Assembly: GCF_014219065.1 (NCBI RefSeq)
Contig: NZ_JACLGO010000017.1
Location: 1 to 64,000 of the forward strand
Length of the DNA stretch: 64,000 nucleotides
Source of the DNA: Halopseudomonas xiamenensis
Lineage (GTDB): Bacteria > Pseudomonadota > Gammaproteobacteria > Pseudomonadales > Pseudomonadaceae
Direction: 5' to 3'
Both the position numbers and the translations under genes were made by a program. How positions within the stretch are numbered: the first letter of the stretch is position 1; the number at the start of each line of letters is the position of its first letter. Below are positions 5,961 through 28,289 of the stretch, one piece after another. Under the pieces are notes generated by a model. The model did no database searches, was not told the origin of the DNA, and was given only the letters and a program-made list of their open reading frames with translations.

Positions 5961-6041
5961 CTGGCCCGCTCCTGAATAGTTACCCGACATGATCGCAATA
6001 GACACAGGGACAATCCAGTGACTGGATCACACTTGTGTAGT

Positions 6042-19428: not shown

Positions 19429-21234
19429 TCACTCATGTGTATTGAGGTCTCGGGCAGTCTGCGTCTCGTCCTGGAACTGCATGCTGTGCAGACGCGCATA
19501 GTAGCCATTGAGCGCCATCAGTTCGGCGTGACTGCCGCGCTCCACGATCTGCCCCTGGTCCATCACCATGATGATATCGGCCTTCTCGATGGTCGACAGG
19601 CGATGGGCGATCACCAGCGCGGTGCGTCCTTCCATGACGCTGTCCAGCGCCGCCTGGATATGCCGTTCCGACTCGGTATCCAGCGCCGAGGTCGCCTCAT
19701 CCAGGATCAGGATCGGCGCATCACGCAGCAGCGCACGGGCGATCGCCAGGCGCTGGCGCTGCCCACCGGACAGCAGCACGCCGTTTTCGCCGACCAGGGT
19801 ATCGAAGCCCTGCGGCAGTTGTTCGATGAACTCCCGGGCATAGGCCGCTTCCGCCGCCGCCATGATGGCCTCACGCGGAGCGCCAGCCAGGTCACCGTAG
19901 GCGATATTGTTGGCCACCGTATCATTGAACAGGGTCACATGCTGGGTCACCAGCGCAATGTGCCTGCGCAGATTGCGCAGGCGATATTGCTCCACCGCCA
20001 CACCGTCGACCAGGATCTGCCCCTGATCGTGGGTGTAGAAGCGCGGAATCAGGTTGGCCAGGGTCGACTTGCCACTGCCGGAACGCCCGACCAGCGCCAC
20101 CATCTGCCCCGGCTCGACGGTAAAGTTGATGTCCCGCAGTACCGGCTTGTCAGAGCCAGGATAACGAAAGGTCAGGTTGTTCACCTCGATACGCCCGCTG
20201 ACACGGTCGCGCTCGATACTGCCGGTATCCTGCTCAGGCTCCTCGTCCAACTGCTCGAAGATGCTCTCCGCGGCGGCGATACCTTTCTGGATATTGGCGC
20301 TGACCTCGGACAGTTGACGGATCGGCTTGGGCAACAGGCCGGCCGCGGTGATATAGGACACCAGGTCACCGGCGGTGGCATCACCACGCAGGAACAGCAC
20401 CAGGAACATCACCCCGGCCATCGCCCCGTAGGTCACCAGCTGCAATGTCGGCGTGAAAACCGCGCCGGTACGTACCATTTTCAGGCCGCGCAAGCGGTTG
20501 TTCTCGCTGGCCTTGTGAAAGCGCTCGCTCTCATAGCTCTCGCCGCCGAAACTGCGCACCACGCGATAGCCGGTAATGGTCTCGGAGGTGACATGAGTCA
20601 CATCGCCCATGGCGGTCTGGATCTTCTTGCTCTGCTTGCGAAACTTCTTGCTGGTGCTGTTGACCATCAGGCCGATCAGCGGCAGCACCGCCATCAGCAC
20701 CAGCGTCAGCTTCCAGTTCATCCACAGCAGATAACCGAACAGGAAGATCACCGTCATGCCCTCACGAAACACTACCTTGATCGCATCGGTGGCGGCACCG
20801 GTGACCATGGTCACATTGAAGGTCACCCGTGAGACCAGATGGCCGGAGTTGTTGTTGTCGAAATAGCGGTTGGGCAAGGTCAACAAGTTATCGAACAGGG
20901 ATGTGCGCAAGTCATGCACTACCCCCAAGGAGACCTTGGCGATGAAATAGTTGCCGAGATAGGAGCCGATACCCTGGTACAGCGCCACCAGGATGATGAA
21001 CAACGGAAAGCCCCAGATCAGCGGCACCCCCAGAAACAATGCCGAACTGCCCTCGTTCAGGCCATCGACAAAGTACTTCAGCATCCAGGCCATGGCCGGC
21101 TGACTGGAGGCGAAAATCATGAAGCCGAAGATACTGATGGCAAAGGGCAGCCAATAGGGTTTGACGTAGCCGAGCAGGCGCAAATAGATGCGTACACTCG
21201 AACGGGCAAAGCTTTCTTTCTGCGGATCCGACAT
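19429..21234 (-). CDS. msbA: lipid A-core flippase, ABC transporter
   Basis: A 601-residue half-transporter with an N-terminal six-helix membrane domain and a C-terminal ATPase. The ATPase shows Walker [10 protein letters not shown], signature [16 protein letters not shown], Walker [13 protein letters not shown] and the H-loop IAHRLST. The dimer flips lipid A-core across the inner membrane. The ATG at 21234 starts [13 protein letters not shown], the family-like N terminus. The frame is open 24 codons further, without support. It is divergent from the kinase-like gene at 21386 and coupled to hldE downstream. Confidence 0.96.
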
Positions 21235-21385
21235 AAGCTCTTCGCGAAATGGAATCAGGCCGGGGAGTTTATCACAGCCTAGAACCGCGCTCCGGGTTGC
21301 CATCATCTGTACATACGACCGTCACTATAGATGAGCCGGTGACCGCGATACGGTAGACTAGCCGCTTTCATTGCGGGAAGGCGGC

Positions 21386-21982
21386 ATGCAGGCACTGGAT
21401 TCAGCACAATACGAGCGCTTGCGCGAAAACGCAGAAGTCCTGGAGCGGGACGGGCATGGCGAGAAAGTACTGCGCCTAGCCGATGGCACCTTCCTCAAGC
21501 TGTTCCGCCGCAAGAGCTGGCTGTCGAAAACCGCCTTCTACCCACCGGCCAGGCGTTTTACCGATAATGCCGCCGAGCTGGAACGCCTGGGCATACCCTG
21601 CCCCCATGTATTGCAACTCTATCGGATGAGCAATCCATACCGCTCGGTGGTGCACTATGAACCGCTGCCCGGCCTGACCCTGCGTCAACTGCTCGCCCAG
21701 GATCCCAGCCTGGACCAGTTGGAGCTTTTTGCCCGGCTGGCCGAATTCATCACTCGACTGCATGACTTGGGGGTGTATTTCAGGTCACTGCACATGGGCA
21801 ATATCGTCCTGACGCCCGACAACGAATTGGGGCTGATCGATATCTCGGATATGCGCTGTCTAGGCCGCCCGCTATCGCGGTGGATGCGTGACAGGAACTA
21901 CCAGCATTTGCTCAGGTACGAACAGGACTGGGCGCAGGTCGACCCGAACATAGGTACGCTGTTCATGTTTTCCCGGCGCTGA
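21386..21982 (+). CDS. Kdo/WaaP kinase-like protein (possible pseudokinase)
   Basis: A 198-residue protein of the LPS-kinase-like superfamily, syntenic with PA4998 beside msbA. The ATP-anchoring Lys is probable in GTFLKLFRRK. The loop reads YFRSLHMGNIVL and the metal-binding segment GLIDISDM. Where active kinases have Asp in the HxD position, this protein has Ser, so it may be inactive or use another base. The GGAAGG site before ATG 21386 fixes the start. It is the only plus-strand gene inside the LPS locus and converges on dnpA, with the two stops abutting. Confidence 0.8.
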   Translation: MQALDSAQYERLRENAEVLERDGHGEKVLRLADGTFLKLFRRKSWLSKTAFYPPARRFTDNAAELERLGIPCPHVLQLYRMSNPYRSVVHYEPLPGLTLRQLLAQDPSLDQLELFARLAEFITRLHDLGVYFRSLHMGNIVLTPDNELGLIDISDMRCLGRPLSRWMRDRNYQHLLRYEQDWAQVDPNIGTLFMFSRR

Positions 21983-23413
21983 TCAGTCAGGAATCGAGTC
22001 ACCCCGCCGGGGAGGCAGTTCTCTCACCCAGAACAGCTCATGCCGGCGCACCGCTTTGCGCAGATATTCATTATCACCGGTCTTCGGCCAACGCCTGCCG
22101 GCCAGCAGACGCTGGATATGACGGCGCAGCTGACGCTTGAAAGGCAGCGGCGGCTGCAGGTCATGGTGCATCAGCAGCGCCATGGCCTTATCCAGCTGCT
22201 GCTGATCATCCAGTACATGGCTGAACAGATCGTCAGCTAACAACTCGACCAACGCGGGCGGCAATGCCACACCAGTATTGGCGTCACCCATCGGCCAACG
22301 GTCGTTGTCATGCAGATGGTTGGCATACAGAAACAACTGTTCCGGCTGCCAGGCGCTCTGCTCCATCGCCTGAAAGAACGCCCGGGTGCTGGCGACATGA
22401 TCAGCATGGGGGTCCAGCTCCGGATGCGGCATCACCACCACATCAGGCCGGAAATGCTCCAGGCAGGCCGCCAGATCGGCAACCAGATTGTTCCAGGTGG
22501 GCAAGCCATCAGCATCGGCGGGCAGATCGATCGCATTGAAACGCCGCGCGCCGCGTATGTCCGTCTCACCGGACTCCTTGGAGCCGAACGCTTGCTCCGG
22601 CTGTTCCGCCATGGCCGTCAACTGCATGCAGTAATACCCCAGCTGCACGCAATCCGCCTGCGGCACACCGCCCCACAGTGGTATGGCCAGGCTATCCCAG
22701 CAACGCAGGCGCCCCTTCAACCGGGCGGCCTCAGTCTTCCCCAGTCCGAGCCGTTGGTAATGTCGCGCCTCGATCTCGCCCTGAGTAAGAGTAACGATGC
22801 GTACCTTCTCCGCACTGCTGTACAGGCCGAACGCCGCCAGCTCAGCATCGTCGGCATGGGGGGCGAGGATGAGCACGCTCTGCGTCCGTGGGCAGGACTG
22901 ATTGAAGGCGAACAATTGCACATCCGGCATGATGGAACAGAAGCCACAATGCACAGCCAGCCCTTCGCCCTGCAGATGCTCCGCCTGCCCGGTCAGGTTC
23001 AGATAGCGCACGCCCCTGGCACCGCGCTCGAATGTCTGTCGGTCATTGCCGATATGGATCACCGGATCGAACAGCAGCCCCAGCCACGAGCTGCGTATCT
23101 GCACCTGCACCACCAGTGTTGCCTGGTCCAGATCGAGCTGGGCCGCTGACAGCTCCAGTCGCCAGAACCCACCAGCCGTCTGCAACGGGATCGGCTCGAT
23201 ATGATCCGGGAAGCGGTAACGGTAATCCTCGCTCGGCGAATAGAACAGATGATCGGCGAACCAGGCTTCATGCGCCAACCAGGCCAGCAACAAGCCAAAC
23301 GGGAGCAGCCAGACTGAGAGTTCGATGCTGGCCATCACCAGCAACGTCAGTACAGCCACCATGGCAACGCGCTTGTTACGCCGATAGCGCTTGAGTAGTC
23401 GTTGTTTACGCAT
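21983..23413 (-). CDS. dnpA: PIG-L family de-N-acetylase, LPS-locus protein DnpA
   Basis: The 476-residue protein has an N-terminal membrane hairpin (about 17-50), a beta-rich middle domain and a PIG-L/LmbE deacetylase domain. The zinc-binding signature is APHADDAE (H186, D188, D189), with a second His set in HPELDPHADH. The P. aeruginosa homologue at this locus, DnpA (PA5002), is linked to antibiotic-tolerant persister formation. The probable substrate is an N-acetylated core or surface sugar, but this is not shown. It lies 5 bp after mig-14, so the two form an operon. Confidence 0.88.
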   Translation of the reverse strand: MRKQRLLKRYRRNKRVAMVAVLTLLVMASIELSVWLLPFGLLLAWLAHEAWFADHLFYSPSEDYRYRFPDHIEPIPLQTAGGFWRLELSAAQLDLDQATLVVQVQIRSSWLGLLFDPVIHIGNDRQTFERGARGVRYLNLTGQAEHLQGEGLAVHCGFCSIMPDVQLFAFNQSCPRTQSVLILAPHADDAELAAFGLYSSAEKVRIVTLTQGEIEARHYQRLGLGKTEAARLKGRLRCWDSLAIPLWGGVPQADCVQLGYYCMQLTAMAEQPEQAFGSKESGETDIRGARRFNAIDLPADADGLPTWNNLVADLAACLEHFRPDVVVMPHPELDPHADHVASTRAFFQAMEQSAWQPEQLFLYANHLHDNDRWPMGDANTGVALPPALVELLADDLFSHVLDDQQQLDKAMALLMHHDLQPPLPFKRQLRRHIQRLLAGRRWPKTGDNEYLRKAVRRHELFWVRELPPRRGDSIPD

Positions 23414-23418
23414 GGGTC

Positions 23419-24318
23419 TCAGCCGACCTCATACACAGGAACACGACGGCACCAGCGATCCTTGTACTGACGGTCGGCACGACCAAAGGAATAGCGCAGC
23501 GCCCTACCCCGCTGCCGAGCATGCTCCCATTCAGCCTGGGTATTCACAAAGCTCAATACGCTGCCCGGGCTCAGCTCGTTGAAAGCCGGGTCCACGCCGC
23601 CATTGATATACTCAACGCTGATCCACTCGGGCGATTCCACCCGGTACAGCACCTGGAATGCCACCGGCACGCCATCGACACAAATGAAACTGCCGGTCAT
23701 GAACTCCCGCAACAGATCGAACACCTCGGGCAGACAGGCCTTGCCCGGAACGGCAAACCCCCAGCGCTTTTCAAACAGGGTGGTATACATCCCGGCCCGC
23801 TCGGCGGTCGACAGCTGACTGATCGGCGCGATGACACCGCCCTGCTCCTCAAGCAAACGCAACTCACGGCGCTGGTTATAGCGAAACTTCCGGCTGTACT
23901 GTTCAGGCTCCCGGGCCAGCGCCAGTTGCTGCTTCTGCGGGCGCAGGGTAGCAACCCGACTGGTATGTAACCCGGAGACATAGCTTCCGGCATGACGTAC
24001 CGATATGAGCGAGTTCGCTGCCTGGGGCAGGATGATCTCCGCATTGCCCAGATCGAAAACGCCACGCTTCTTCCTGCGCTTGAGCACCACCCTGGACAGG
24101 GCCAGATGCTTGCCCCAGACAGGCATCGCCGCCTGCAGCTCACCATCGTCAAACCAGCCCAGGTAACGCACCTCGATGCCAGCCAGCGCTGACAACCCGG
24201 CTACGATCTGCGGGTGTGTCGCCACGCTGCCACCCCAGCGCGCCCAGGCCTGCTGGTAATCCCCGGCATCGATGGGAGTCCAGCCACGCTCACGATACAA
24301 ACGAAACAGATCGAACAT
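23419..24318 (-). CDS. mig-14: Mig-14-like protein, antimicrobial-peptide tolerance
   Basis: A 299-residue protein matching the Mig-14 family, with a C-terminal GNAT-like half (KFRYNQRRELRLLEEQGG, then FICVDGVPVAFQVLYR and FNELSPGSVLSFVN). In Salmonella, Mig-14 is PhoP-regulated and supports resistance to cationic peptides. The Pseudomonas homologue (PA5003) lies in the same LPS locus. The protein is inner-membrane associated in Salmonella, although no strong transmembrane helix is visible here. The upstream region carries the paired GTTCAG motif and TATATT box annotated separately, which fits envelope-stress control. Confidence 0.85.
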   Translation of the reverse strand: MFDLFRLYRERGWTPIDAGDYQQAWARWGGSVATHPQIVAGLSALAGIEVRYLGWFDDGELQAAMPVWGKHLALSRVVLKRRKKRGVFDLGNAEIILPQAANSLISVRHAGSYVSGLHTSRVATLRPQKQQLALAREPEQYSRKFRYNQRRELRLLEEQGGVIAPISQLSTAERAGMYTTLFEKRWGFAVPGKACLPEVFDLLREFMTGSFICVDGVPVAFQVLYRVESPEWISVEYINGGVDPAFNELSPGSVLSFVNTQAEWEHARQRGRALRYSFGRADRQYKDRWCRRVPVYEVG

Positions 24319-24482
24319 GGAACTAGACCGCGTTGCGCTTGGCGGCAGTATTCGTGATGGCCCAGTGATTTTTGAGCATAGCTGTCCCTATGCCCTCGCC
24401 GGAAGCATGACTTCCTCACTTGGGCATAACCTGATGATGATGAAATAACGAACTTGAAGGGCGGCAGTTTGCCGGCGAGCCC

Positions 24483-24543
24483 AATATAGAGAAGTTTGCT
24501 TTCTCGCTGTTGGGTATTCGCTTTTTGTTCAGGAAGCGTTCAG
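24483..24543 (-). promoter_or_regulatory. candidate activator box and promoter for mig-14-dnpA
   Basis: GTTCAG-GAAGC-GTTCAG (24527-24543) is a direct repeat with 11-bp period, the layout of OmpR/PhoP-type regulators. Exactly 38 bp away on the mig-14 side is AATATA (24483-24488), which reads TATATT on the minus strand and could be a -10 box, about 165 bp upstream of the mig-14 ATG. The same two elements with the same 38-bp spacing recur upstream of the InaA-like gene (26302-26362). No gene is visible in the rest of 24319-24653, which is AT-rich. The regulator is inferred. Confidence 0.55.
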
Positions 24544-24653
24544 CTTTTCAGGAAGGGAGGTCATACGTATATACGCATCGGCACAAGCGACTGCGGAAAA
24601 AGGCATACCGCAGCCACTTGTTCATAGGAATACTGGACCAGGTAAAACGAGGC

Positions 24654-25316
24654 TCAACGCGCGAACGTCAAATCCCAATCTTCTGGATCAATAAAACCTA
24701 ATGCCTTGACCCCTTCAGGATTGTCCGCCAGCGACAGGAAAATTGCGGAGCCGTATGCGGGAAGCTCTTCGTCATACCCCAGCGCCTCTTGTGCATAGTT
24801 GATGCAGTGACTGTGCGTAACCAGAATCAGGTTCCGCGCCACCTGCTTGTTGTCCAGAGCGGTGTCGATGAAATCCTCCTCACAACTGACCAGCCAATCG
24901 CGCTCCTCACCCACATCGCCAAAAACCAGCGCCTCGGTCTCGGCGGTCCGTAGTGCGGGGCTGTTGTAGACAATGGACTTATCCAGCCCCAGCTCGCCAA
25001 AATCCTCATGCAGCTCGTCCCCGACCAGTTTGGCACGTGCGGTCAGCCCGCTTTTGTCGGTCAGGCAGGGCACATCATATCGATCACAGCGCTCGAGATG
25101 ACGCAGCAGCACGACAACCTCACCCCTGTCCCACGACTGCAGAAGCTCTCCCGTGTAATGCCGGTGCTCTTCAGAAAGGTCGGCTATCGCCGGTGGTTCG
25201 AACAGGAAATACAGCAGCGTACTGGCGAGGAGGGTGAAGGCAACAGAGAGTCTGTGGCGGTTGAGCCATTCGGGCAGGCGTGACAGGTAGAGCATTGGCG
25301 AGATCCTGATTGTCAT
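24654..25316 (-). CDS. histidine phosphatase family protein, membrane-anchored
   Basis: A 220-residue protein with an N-terminal transmembrane anchor (about 23-40, VAFTLLASTLLYFLF) and a branch-2-like histidine phosphatase domain. The phospho-acceptor motif is VVLLRHLERC and the second catalytic His is in ILVTHSHCINY. It resembles the Ais/PmrG type of LPS heptose-phosphate phosphatases in size and architecture. Given its place among LPS kinases, removal of core phosphate in the periplasm is a reasonable but unproven role. The ATG at 25295 is an alternative start. A diverged copy of its 5' end and upstream region lies at 27208-27385. Confidence 0.78.
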   Translation of the reverse strand: MTIRISPMLYLSRLPEWLNRHRLSVAFTLLASTLLYFLFEPPAIADLSEEHRHYTGELLQSWDRGEVVVLLRHLERCDRYDVPCLTDKSGLTARAKLVGDELHEDFGELGLDKSIVYNSPALRTAETEALVFGDVGEERDWLVSCEEDFIDTALDNKQVARNLILVTHSHCINYAQEALGYDEELPAYGSAIFLSLADNPEGVKALGFIDPEDWDLTFAR

Positions 25317-25405
25317 GCAGCAAAGGGCAGCATGAAAGCAGTATTGAGATACATTCGCAACACTTTTCTACCGGACCAGTACCGACGGCTGCCTCCTTGT
25401 GCTTA

Positions 25406-26236
25406 TCATACCTGACGTTGCTTGCGGGCAGAACGATGCAATACCCTGGCGACCCAATAGCGCACCTGCATATCTACCTTTGACTTGCCCAGGTAAGCCA
25501 ACAGAAAGCGTAGCCGTTGACTCCGACTGGGCGGCTGGCTGCGTCGATACAATGCCTCCAGATCGCGCATACGTCCCCAGGGCGAGAATAGATGCGCACG
25601 ACTCTTTTCCAGATCGATTAGGCACGCACTTGCCCCATCCTCTGTTGGCTTGAGAAAGATATGCTTGGGATACAGGCAGTTATGCACTATCGAGTGTTTG
25701 TGCAGCAACGCAATCAGTTTCCCTGCCGCTACCAGCAGGTCCCTCTTCTGGCAGCACCCTAGCGAATGCCAGTTGGCAAACCAATGATCCAACGGCAGAT
25801 AGCCATCCAGATTACGGGTCAGCAGAATCGCGTGCAACTCCCCTTCGACCCGTCGCTGGGCAAAAAAGGCAGCTTGCAGTGCCGGAATACCCAGCTGTGC
25901 ATACCGTTGGATATTGTAGAACTCTCGCGCAACAGTTGGCTCACCCAGCGGGTGGCGTATAGTGCGGATCAGATAGTTGCTCTGACGCTTCAGATAGAAA
26001 ACCTGCGGGTTGCCGTTGGCATCTTGCAGACTCAGCCGACTGACGCTGCTATATCCACCACGGGCGTAGTTGGGTTCATCCACCAACTCCGCCTCCACTT
26101 CCCAGAGCGCTTCGAAGCTATCGAGTCGATGAAGTTGCAGCGTATCGAACGCATTGACGGCAATAAAAGCCGAATCCGTCGTTCTCGTCCTTCGATACCT
26201 AGGACGACCGATCTCAGGAGCCCTGCTCGACATCAT
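25406..26236 (-). CDS. InaA-like lipopolysaccharide kinase family protein
   Basis: A Kdo/InaA-superfamily protein of about 276 residues. The N-lobe contains VFYLKRQSN (probable ATP-anchoring Lys). The catalytic loop is IVHNCLYPKHIFL, followed by CLIDLEKSR. The HNC-LYPKH form, with Cys in place of the usual Asp, is what I recall of InaA-type proteins, so it appears to be a family trait. The role is probably phosphorylation of LPS core or an accessory function to it. I start at the ATG pair at 26233-26236. ATG 26257 adds seven hydrophobic residues without a better ribosome site. A promoter like that of mig-14 lies upstream. Confidence 0.8.
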   Translation of the reverse strand: MMSSRAPEIGRPRYRRTRTTDSAFIAVNAFDTLQLHRLDSFEALWEVEAELVDEPNYARGGYSSVSRLSLQDANGNPQVFYLKRQSNYLIRTIRHPLGEPTVAREFYNIQRYAQLGIPALQAAFFAQRRVEGELHAILLTRNLDGYLPLDHWFANWHSLGCCQKRDLLVAAGKLIALLHKHSIVHNCLYPKHIFLKPTEDGASACLIDLEKSRAHLFSPWGRMRDLEALYRRSQPPSRSQRLRFLLAYLGKSKVDMQVRYWVARVLHRSARKQRQV

Positions 26237-26301
26237 AATCACCCACAGAAAAGCCATGACACATCACAGCAACTGCTGCTGCGACGCACCAACAAAGGGG
26301 C

Positions 26302-26362
26302 AATATAAGAGAACCAGCCACCTCACTTCGGGATTTCCGCAATCCGTTCAGCGAGCGTTCAG
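26302..26362 (-). promoter_or_regulatory. candidate activator box and promoter for the InaA-like gene
   Basis: GTTCAG-CGAGC-GTTCAG (26346-26362) lies exactly 38 bp from AATATA (26302-26307), read TATATT toward the InaA-like gene. Spacing and half-sites are identical to those upstream of mig-14. On the plus strand the same box is followed after 12 nt by TATGAC (26375-26380), the spacing known for PhoP-dependent promoters. A second, rightward promoter into the higBA remnant is therefore also possible. Confidence 0.55.
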
Positions 26363-26470
26363 CTTTCCCAACAGTATGACCATCCACCTCGGTGGCCGGT
26401 ATCCTGCGCCAGCACCACCGCAGGAAACCGACACTCGCGCAAAGTCCCAACGCGGACCTAAAATAAGCCC

Positions 26471-26896
26471 ATGAGCATAATCGCCATCAGCCACCTGAAA
26501 GCCTTCAGGGAGAGATACCCAGATGCAGAGTAACCACTGTTGGCCTGGACCGACGAAGCCAAAAAAGCTGTCTGGTCCAGCCCTACGGACATCAAGAAGC
26601 AGTTTCGTAACGCGAGCATTCCCAAAAGATGCCTTCGAGGTCATAATCACCCTGATAGAGGCCTACGAGGCGAAGCATTTTCCTGTCGATCTGCCGACCC
26701 CCATTGATGCGATCAAGTTCCGCATGGACAATCAGGCTTGACTGCTGCCAATCTGGCTCCCGCTATCGGCAGAACGAATCGCGTCTATGAAGTGCTGAAC
26801 GGGACGCGCGCCCTTACGCTGCCGATGATCTAGAAACTGCACAACATGTTCGGTATCCCGGCGGAGAGCCTGATCAAGCCTGTGACTCACACATAA
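26471..26896 (+). pseudogene. degraded higBA-type toxin-antitoxin locus
   Basis: From ATG 26471 the reading frame gives MSIIAISHLKAFRERYPDAE, then a stop (26531-26533), then an open stretch ending KKQFRNASI. This is the N-terminal half of a HigB-type mRNA interferase. Without the rest of the toxin or an antitoxin start, the sequence passes into the middle of a HigA antitoxin (ITLIEAYEAKHFPVDLP, then IKFRMDNQ). A 1-nt deletion follows near 26737, and the +frame resumes LAPAIGRTNRVYEVLNG and ends at 26896 after another in-frame stop (TAG in ATCTAGAAA). At least four lesions make both genes non-functional. The identification is by recalled family sequence. Confidence 0.75.
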
Positions 26897-26953
26897 TCCG
26901 GCACCCGCAACGCAAAAAACCAGCCGGGCTGGGTTTGGCATGGCGCCATCTAG

Positions 26954-27172
26954 CCATTCGTCATCAGTCGCAAGAACTGGCTGTTCAACGATACACCCAA
27001 GAGTGTTCACGCCAGCACGCTGATCTACAGCCTAGTTGAAACAGCCAAGGCCAACGGGCAGGAACTCTATGCCTGGTTGCGGCATGTGCTGGAGCGCCTG
27101 CCCTTGGCCACTACGACAGAAGACTATGAAGCTCTGCTTCCATGGCATTGCCTAAAGGTCAATAGTTACTGA
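26954..27172 (+). mobile_element. IS66-family transposase (TnpC) C-terminal remnant
   Basis: The 72-codon frame starts PFVISRKNWLFNDTPK and ends LPLATTTEDYEALLPWH..., the characteristic C terminus of IS66-type TnpC. A TAG immediately precedes it in frame, and the rest of the transposase, tnpA/tnpB and the ends of the element are missing. It lies between the higBA remnant and a partial gene duplication, marking an old insertion/deletion point in the LPS locus. Confidence 0.78.
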
Positions 27173-27207
27173 TCGGTAGCCCTGTGGGAAGGTGGGGGTT
27201 ACGGATC

Positions 27208-27385
27208 AGTTACAGCGGTTGAGCCATCCAGTTAGGCCAGACAGGTAATGCATTGGCTAGGCGCTGCTTGTAGATTGGGGATCCTGAAAAAACATGTATA
27301 CGACAGAGGGTTCATGCTCCCTGAGGAGAGCAGGCACTATGAAACCAGTATTGAGACCCGTTCGCAACAAATTCCTTACCCTATG
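27208..27385 (-). pseudogene. relic duplicate of the histidine-phosphatase 5' region
   Basis: This stretch matches 25255-25375 with gaps. Shared blocks include GCGGTTGAGCCAT, CAGGTA..GCATTGGC, and ATGAAA.CAGTATTGAGA followed by TTCGCAACA. It thus copies the first codons (on the minus strand) and the upstream flank of the histidine phosphatase gene. The remaining coding part is gone and its place is taken by the IS66 remnant. It cannot encode a protein. Confidence 0.6.
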
Positions 27386-27401
27386 GCCTCATAAGTGCAT
27401 C

Positions 27402-28289
27402 TCAATGTTTTACCAGCATCCGTAATACCCCTCTCAGCACCTTCAAATCCATACTCCGAAGCGGGATGCGCCTTAGTATCTTCAAGGCCAGCCTGCGATC
27501 AGCTTTGGCAGCTTTCATAAAATAGGATTTGAAATGCTTGGTACACACCGCCTGATAATCCTGATCGTCAGCATACAAAGCATATATCCGTAATACCTCA
27601 TCGAACATGAATTCCAAACGAGAATGCATATTGCCATCGTGTACCCGGTAAAAGGCCAGATCGTCCTCCAGTACATCGATAAAGTAACCGGCGCTGGTAA
27701 CCTTAAGCATCATTAACAGGTCTTCAATACGCATGGTCTCGTCGTAACCACCTACGTTACGAACCACATCAGTACGTAGCATCATGCTGGGAGCAGGTGC
27801 ACCGGCTACCGTGCCACAGAACACTGCGCGAAAATCCAGGCGCCGAGCGGGCCGATGACGATACTTGTGCGGCAACCTTTCACCATTTTCCGCAATAGGT
27901 ACAATATTTCCGCCACAGATAGCCACCTGGGGGTGCGAATGCATGTGCTCAACCTGCCGGCCAAGTCGGCCAGGCAGCATCACATCATCTGAAGCAATAG
28001 GTACAAAGAGTTCGCCTTCAGCCAATGCCAGCGCCCGGTTGAGCGTGGTCAACAGACCTTGATTAGCTTGCACATGCAGCTTGAATGGGTAATCCTCCTG
28101 CAATCGTTGCAACAACTCCGGGCTGCCATCGGTCGAGCCGTCATCAATGACTATCACCTGCTTATTGACATAGTTCTGCTCAAAGATACTCTGCAGGCAT
28201 GCCTCAATGAAAGGCGCATGATTGTAGGAAGGCACAACCACACTGACCAAAGGCCCATCCGCCGACATCTGTTCCTCAATGCTATTCAT
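27402..28289 (-). CDS. glycosyltransferase family 2
   Basis: A 295-residue GT-A fold enzyme. The N terminus reads VSVVVPSYNHAPFIEACLQS, with VIDDGSTDGS (nucleotide-sugar contact) and the metal-binding ASDD segment (PIASDDVMLPGR). A probable acceptor-side ED occurs in RIEDLLMMLK. It has no membrane segment and should act at the cytoplasmic face on a lipid-linked or core acceptor. It is the last gene of the AT-richer sugar island, 28 bp after the aminotransferase gene. Donor and linkage are not predictable. The dTDP-3-acetamido sugar made by the upstream genes is a candidate donor. Confidence 0.87.
   Translation of the reverse strand: MNSIEEQMSADGPLVSVVVPSYNHAPFIEACLQSIFEQNYVNKQVIVIDDGSTDGSPELLQRLQEDYPFKLHVQANQGLLTTLNRALALAEGELFVPIASDDVMLPGRLGRQVEHMHSHPQVAICGGNIVPIAENGERLPHKYRHRPARRLDFRAVFCGTVAGAPAPSMMLRTDVVRNVGGYDETMRIEDLLMMLKVTSAGYFIDVLEDDLAFYRVHDGNMHSRLEFMFDEVLRIYALYADDQDYQAVCTKHFKSYFMKAAKADRRLALKILRRIPLRSMDLKVLRGVLRMLVKH

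Follow-up and report, generated by a model that had tools for sequence, protein, structure and literature searches.

Two candidate PhoP boxes before mig-14 and an inaA-like gene suggest a lineage-specific extension of the PhoP regulon in Halopseudomonas xiamenensis

In the LPS locus of Halopseudomonas xiamenensis, the promoter regions of mig-14 and of an inaA-like gene carry the same direct repeat at the same distance from the same hexamer, which raises the question of which regulator reads the repeat and in which direction it acts. The window, i.e. the whole stretch of 64,000 nucleotides analysed here (NCBI RefSeq assembly GCF_014219065.1, contig NZ_JACLGO010000017.1, positions 1 to 64,000 of the forward strand), was said in a preliminary description to contain GTTCAG-N5-GTTCAG twice, each time 38 bp from AATATA (24483-24488 and 26302-26307), and both arrangements were found exactly. 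The features concerned are as follows.

24527..24543, minus strand: candidate PhoP box of the mig-14-dnpA promoter, exact; it reads CTGAACGCTTCCTGAAC toward mig-14, with GTTCAG-N5-GTTCAG directed away from the gene
24483..24488, minus strand: TATATT, presumed -10 of mig-14-dnpA, 38 bp from the box and without a recognisable -35
26346..26362, minus strand: candidate PhoP box of the inaA-like/pmrG promoter, exact; it reads CTGAACGCTCGCTGAAC toward the gene
26302..26307, minus strand: TATATT, presumed -10 of inaA-like-pmrG, 38 bp from the box and without a recognisable -35
23419..24318, minus strand: mig-14 (Pfam Mig-14, E 1.1e-106)
21983..23413, minus strand: dnpA-like PIG-L deacetylase (PIG-L match), 5 bp downstream of mig-14
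25406..26257, minus strand: inaA-like LPS kinase (Pfam Kdo/WaaP family, E 1.4e-46; best NCBIfam InaA, below its cut-off)
24654..25316, minus strand: pmrG, LPS core heptose(II)-phosphate phosphatase (NCBIfam PmrG, 178.7 bits against a cut-off of 170), 89 bp downstream of the inaA-like gene
24483..24563, minus strand: mig-14 promoter patch similar to the inaA-like promoter, from about 20 bp upstream of the box through the -10
26302..26382, minus strand: matching patch of the inaA-like promoter, from the sequence comparison with the mig-14 patch

Read along the minus strand, the order is inaA-like, pmrG, mig-14, and a PIG-L deacetylase in the position of dnpA, a name given here by position from the gene order in the available text of PMC9866376. 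The dnpA-like gene presumably shares a transcript with mig-14, and the inaA-like gene and pmrG are probably co-transcribed. Both boxes are intergenic and in promoter position, with the spacing to the -10 kept. A promoter search gave no sigma-70 -35/-10 pair at either window promoter, as is to be expected if the promoters depend on an activator. No known structured RNA was found in 21000-28000 at Rfam gathering scores, nor any plasmid record similar to the window.

Some minor features lie around the two promoters. The presumed mig-14 transcript leader (about 158 nt, 24319-24476, minus strand) is in large part conserved in the sister species MYb185; its short reading frame, of 18 and 27 codons by eye, begins MxKNH and in the window stops 4 nt before the mig-14 ATG, and a leader peptide upstream of mig-14 is possible. 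A terminator-like hairpin with a T-rich tail (26257-26291, minus strand) lies in the presumed inaA-like leader just past its start; the region has four terminator-like sites against 2.3 in shuffles. Between the inaA-like promoter and a sugar-biosynthesis block, a broken reading frame (26473-26742, plus strand) looks by eye like the remnant of a HigB/HigA toxin-antitoxin pair.

Within the window, the motif is not enriched at up to two mismatches (seven matches against a shuffle mean of 4.4, with 14 of 100 shuffles reaching seven), and the case is therefore carried by the exact search of the whole genome. That scan turned out as the preliminary description had predicted: in 4.28 Mb the exact motif gives five matches in three places, namely the two window sites and oprH-phoPQ, where three overlapping matches arise from four tandem half-sites with an 11-bp period (C7:23410-23448). 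The backwards-read control motif has no match in this genome. In 37 congeners there are 59 exact matches, 36 of them at oprH, six at other places in genomes with oprH, and 17 in the 23 genomes that lack it; the control gives eight. Eleven of the 15 matches inspected among those 17 fall inside open reading frames of at least 100 aa. A realistic background is thus about 0.7 exact matches per genome; by comparison the backwards-read control is too lenient, probably owing to frequent use of the codon pair CTG AAC. Apart from G013 C48, the exact sites outside oprH and mig-14 in oprH-bearing congeners were inspected in MYb185 (C23, inside a gene read as HlyD-type) and in G015 (C1, overlapping the end of a gene read as ybgF-like). 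Across 148 genomes of the family, 487 motif matches stand against 21 for the control, and 126 genomes have at least one match.

The third place in the genome bears on the identity of the motif. The fourfold array ends about 50 bp before a gene matching Pseudomonas aeruginosa OprH (PDB 2lhf, E 1.3e-61), downstream of which follow a response regulator and a kinase whose best NCBIfam models are PhoP and PhoQ, both below the enteric cut-offs. The comparison with oprH-phoPQ, which had been proposed as a check, came out as expected: all 14 oprH-bearing congeners (of 37) have the exact box there in direct orientation. Eleven of them have four exact tandem half-sites, and the other three (G010, G013, and G033) have one exact pair together with shifted or degenerate repeats; a CAnnnT hexamer, picked by eye, begins 11 bp past a half-site in every one of the 14. 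The motif therefore marks the promoter of phoPQ itself. The Pseudomonas PhoP box invoked in the preliminary description is also in print, and the window motif equals the P. aeruginosa consensus GTTCAGNNNNNRTTCAG given in the available text of PMC3156716 and PMC7916210. This site at retS was tested there by gel shift and half-site mutation (PMC3156716), and ChIP-seq of PhoP in PA14 is reported to give the motif G/ATTCAG and targets that include oprH, arnB, and slyB (PMC7916210).

Accordingly, the window boxes fit the GTTCAG-N5-RTTCAG direct repeat of Pseudomonas PhoP-box promoters, and their own genome has a phoP-phoQ operon that carries this motif as well. They share with the P. aeruginosa regulon (oprH-phoPQ, arnB, slyB, retS, rsmZ), as far as described in PMC3156716 and PMC7916210, the half-site, the period, and an oprH-phoP-phoQ operon with the site upstream; however, they differ from it in being reverse-oriented and distal. 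The main text of the ChIP-seq study of PhoP in P. aeruginosa (PMC7916210) mentions neither mig-14 (PA5003) nor PA5006, and the PA5003/PA5006 gene cluster appears in a table of the RpoH regulon (PMC9866376, as available).

The preferred reading, drawn from sequence comparison, is that the window boxes very probably belong to PhoP-activated promoters and form a lineage-specific extension of the PhoP regulon. The small envelope-stress regulon that was suggested for this locus finds support in the identity of the motif with the site at its own phoPQ and with the published consensus, in its rarity, in its conservation at mig-14 of MYb185, and in the geometry at a further gene, uppP. PhoQ is active in low Mg2+ or with cationic peptides. 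PhoP-P from the cell's own oprH-phoP-phoQ operon would bind the direct repeat as a head-to-tail dimer, with the box reverse-oriented and upstream of where RNA polymerase sits, about 37 nt (in the Salmonella register) from a TATATT -10 that has no usable -35. From there it would activate leftward transcription into mig-14-dnpA and inaA-like-pmrG. PhoPQ would thereby be linked to peptide resistance (mig-14), a deacetylase, an LPS-core kinase, and a core-phosphate phosphatase, and uppP would probably join them. In this scheme we infer the binding of PhoP, the activation, the use of the -10, and the Mg2+ or peptide signal.

As to direction, both window boxes point away from their genes, i.e. they are in reverse orientation, which corrects the preliminary description. 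The 38 bp correspond to about 37 nt from the presumed -10 in the Salmonella (GTTTA) register, and the 11 bp at oprH to 12 nt, as the 17-nt Salmonella box begins one base before GTTTA; this conversion rests partly on what we take to be the Salmonella phoP sequence and may be off by one. According to the available text of PMC3335776, a reverse box in Salmonella activates when it lies 27, 37, or 48 nt from the -10, whereas distances of 23 or 28-32 nt give little expression, and pagK naturally uses a reverse box at 37 nt. The window promoters thus resemble architecture V of that classification, of which pagK is the example, in that an AT-rich -10 with a poor -35 is preceded by a reverse box at a distance of about 37 nt. 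However, architecture V promoters have a second box and the half-site GTTTA (PMC3335776), whereas one box was found at each window promoter, with the half-site GTTCAG. No second PhoP box occurs at or downstream of the -10 at up to two mismatches to GTTCAG-N5-GTTCAG; at three mismatches there is only an overlapping reverse match 11 bp downstream, at mig-14, and one enteric-type direct match with two mismatches lies 115 bp upstream of it. By analogy, the window promoters may work like the activating half of architecture V, without being full members. The oprH boxes, at 12 nt in the Salmonella register, correspond to Salmonella architecture I (PMC3335776).

The same orientation allows for a different reading, in which PhoP binds both boxes but drives rightward transcription, as a direct box would, or acts as a repressor, and does not activate mig-14 and the inaA-like gene. 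GTTCAG is indeed directed rightward, and the inaA-like box has a TATGAC 12 bp farther on, nearly the 11 bp of oprH; in P. aeruginosa, PhoP is described as repressing retS and rsmZ from boxes between the -10 and the start codon (PMC3156716). However, the mig-14 box has no -10-like hexamer 10-12 bp to its right in either the window species or MYb185, and rightward transcripts would run antisense to pmrG or into the presumed toxin-antitoxin remnant. Each window box lies upstream of the presumed -10, whereas that of retS lies downstream, and at uppP the -10-like hexamer is on the gene side and is conserved in genomes with and without the box. This alternative is therefore improbable, and activation toward the genes is preferred.

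The statement that mig-14 is PhoP-controlled in Salmonella is likewise borne out in print (PMC3335776). Salmonella mig-14, an architecture II promoter in the available text of that paper, has a second, reverse activating box 57 nt from +1, from which a distance of about 36 nt from the -10 can be derived (57 minus 21). A direct box 12 nt from the -10 is present there as well (PMC3335776), and no counterpart of it was found at the window mig-14. Among the 37 congeners, mig-14 is present in two, the window species and MYb185, and in both the box and TATATT stand 38 bp apart. The two promoters share the entire 17-bp box, all 6 letters of TATATT, and 31 of the 38 spacer positions, but in an ungapped comparison only 10 of the 40 bp lying 20 to 60 bp upstream agree; the Mig-14 proteins are 84% identical. 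A PhoP box general to Pseudomonas mig-14 was considered and rejected. Among the best 80 of 92 mig-14 loci, taken from named genomes but without any record named P. aeruginosa, MYb185 alone has the box; the other 79 show at least three mismatches in the 500 bp upstream, and none has a match at up to one mismatch within up to 3.9 kb (1.35 and 2.0 kb in two loci with shorter upstream DNA). The mig-14 box is special to this lineage, and it seems that PhoP control of mig-14 arose separately in enterics and here.

For the inaA-like gene, a close relative (at least 49% identity) is present in 31 of the 37 congeners, the exact box is nearby in the window genome only, and the nearest exact box in the others is about 17 kb away, so that the inaA-like box is without conservation support (1 of 31). 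In MYb185 the inaA-like gene adjoins another kinase gene, and a sugar-biosynthesis block lies between it and pmrG, about 14 kb away; in the window it stands beside pmrG, on the other side of a comparable block.

It was further held that the intervening sequences of the two window promoters differ and that their shared 38-bp spacing is not simply a recent duplication. The first point is only partly true, since the spacers match at 16 of 38 positions, a value reached by 119 of 50,000 shuffles (P 0.026 for random window pairs), and the spacer of MYb185 mig-14 matches that of the window inaA-like promoter at 20 of 38 (3 of 50,000 shuffles). When all motif letters are left out, 63 positions remain to be compared (20 left of the box, the N5, and the 38-bp spacer). 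The two window promoters agree at 29 of them (2 of 50,000 shuffles; 4 of 16,743 GC-matched genomic 63-mers), and MYb185 mig-14 and the window inaA-like promoter at 34 (0 of 50,000 and 0 of 16,743). Outside the patch the two window promoters show no clear resemblance. These comparisons suggest that the two promoters are probably old copies of one another, with the inaA-like promoter probably an old copy of the mig-14 patch; copying is the simplest explanation, and a shared constraint by one more factor a less likely one. Therefore, the window pair probably does not represent two independent cases of 38-bp spacing, and the second point is weakened to that extent. An identical hexamer with at most one mismatch to TATAAT at an equal offset of 10-70 bp occurs in 3 of 100,000 random GC-matched pairs, a figure that loses force if the promoters are copies.

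If the promoters are copies, a single origin is all that has to be explained, and the background of about 0.7 exact matches in each oprH-less genome would also speak for chance matches or a mere repeat without any regulatory role. Such an origin is nevertheless extremely unlikely. Both sites are intergenic, in promoter position, and with the -10 spacing kept, the mig-14 box is unchanged in a species with Mig-14 84% identical, and the sole other exact site in the genome is the promoter of phoPQ itself.

The argument from spacing is restored by uppP, a third promoter outside the window (L012, 1405-1517; C10:82551-82662 of the same genome), where a one-mismatch reverse box, CTGACCGGCAGCTGAAC, stands 38 bp from TTTACT before a gene of the BacA family (uppP/bacA, Pfam E 8e-83). 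Its spacer agrees with that of mig-14 at 8 of 38 positions and with that of the inaA-like promoter at 13 of 38, both at chance level, and the geometry of box and -10 thus recurs independently; in this respect the claim that the spacing is more than a recent duplication holds. uppP is present in 35 of the 37 congeners, and the upstream DNA was read in all 35 (30 and five further loci). Of the 13 congeners among these that have oprH, 7 carry a reverse box at up to two mismatches, and of the 22 that lack oprH none does (Fisher 0.0003, or 0.0007 minus the window genome, in both cases uncorrected for kinship); the box is thus missing in six of the 13. Five of the seven boxes lie 38 bp from TTTACT, and those of a sister pair 40 and 41 bp from TCTACT. 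Many genomes that lack the box nevertheless conserve the hexamer block, an argument for a true -10 at uppP. The box and the stop codon of the gene before it overlap, so that the box may be conserved in part for a different reason. On sequence grounds, uppP is probably a further PhoP target with the same geometry, and its conservation slightly raised our already high confidence in the PhoP reading. The genome has 18 one-mismatch sites, of which 17 were read (all but L014) and L012 was compared for conservation; more members of the regulon may be among the other 17. A one-mismatch site at 6040 in the window was dropped, as it overlaps the end of a gene.

The pattern at uppP also bears on the identity of the binder. 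Another OmpR-family regulator of similar specificity, e.g. a PmrA-, ColR-, or CprR-like one, could be the main binder at the window boxes, since 11-bp direct repeats are what this family binds; moreover, both mig-14 and pmrG serve peptide resistance, and in enterics PmrA regulates pmrG. Against it, oprH-phoPQ carries four exact tandem half-sites in 11 of the 14 genomes with oprH and no fewer than one exact pair in the remaining three, the motif equals the PhoP consensus published in PMC3156716 and PMC7916210, and the uppP box was found only in oprH-bearing genomes among the 35 congeners with uppP. It is therefore very unlikely that such a regulator, and not PhoP, is the main binder.

Overall, a new extension of a known regulon with an unusual but known geometry is well supported. 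The PhoP regulon of a little-studied Pseudomonas lineage would thereby gain two likely new envelope-defence operons, and probably uppP as well. It also suggests that the rules of orientation and distance for Salmonella PhoP hold for Pseudomonas PhoP despite the different half-site. One tentative scheme, which we lean slightly against, goes further and takes the single reverse box 38 bp from the -10 as a second standard class of PhoP promoter in this lineage, with separate origins at uppP and mig-14. The class would have spread to inaA-like-pmrG when a patch of about 80 bp from mig-14 was copied within the locus, after the sugar-gene block had split the inaA-like gene from the core-LPS genes; Pseudomonas and Salmonella would independently have put mig-14 under PhoP in near-identical RNA-polymerase geometry. 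The sister species here could serve to test the growth of a regulon by promoter copying.

In other genera of the family, 20 places from seven genomes among the matches listed were inspected, comprising seven fourfold arrays and 13 single boxes. For the 13 single boxes, read in reverse, a -10-like hexamer never falls at exactly 38 bp; at four of them it falls at 39 bp, in three cases within an apparent terminator hairpin. Five of the seven fourfold arrays lie upstream of phoP, two before oprH-phoP (L230 and L233), one before phoP with no OprH recognised (L224), and two (L229 and L236) before a secreted protein of about 100 aa without an OprH match, which is followed by phoP and occupies the place that oprH has elsewhere. 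The other two arrays (L231 and L232, from two genomes of another genus) stand 11 bp before TAACCT or TAGTCT, in the same design as at oprH, upstream of a glycine-zipper lipoprotein that is read as SlyB (Pfam for L231); slyB is a known PhoP target (PMC7916210, as available). A single box recurs in three genomes upstream of an SbmA/YddA-like transporter, where it lies at the 3' end of a roxR-like gene (L227, L234, and L238; names by eye, with the transporter read in L234), and in three genomes near an FTR1 iron permease (L228, L237, and L240; Pfam for L240), and the genes near both groups of boxes are possible further PhoP targets.
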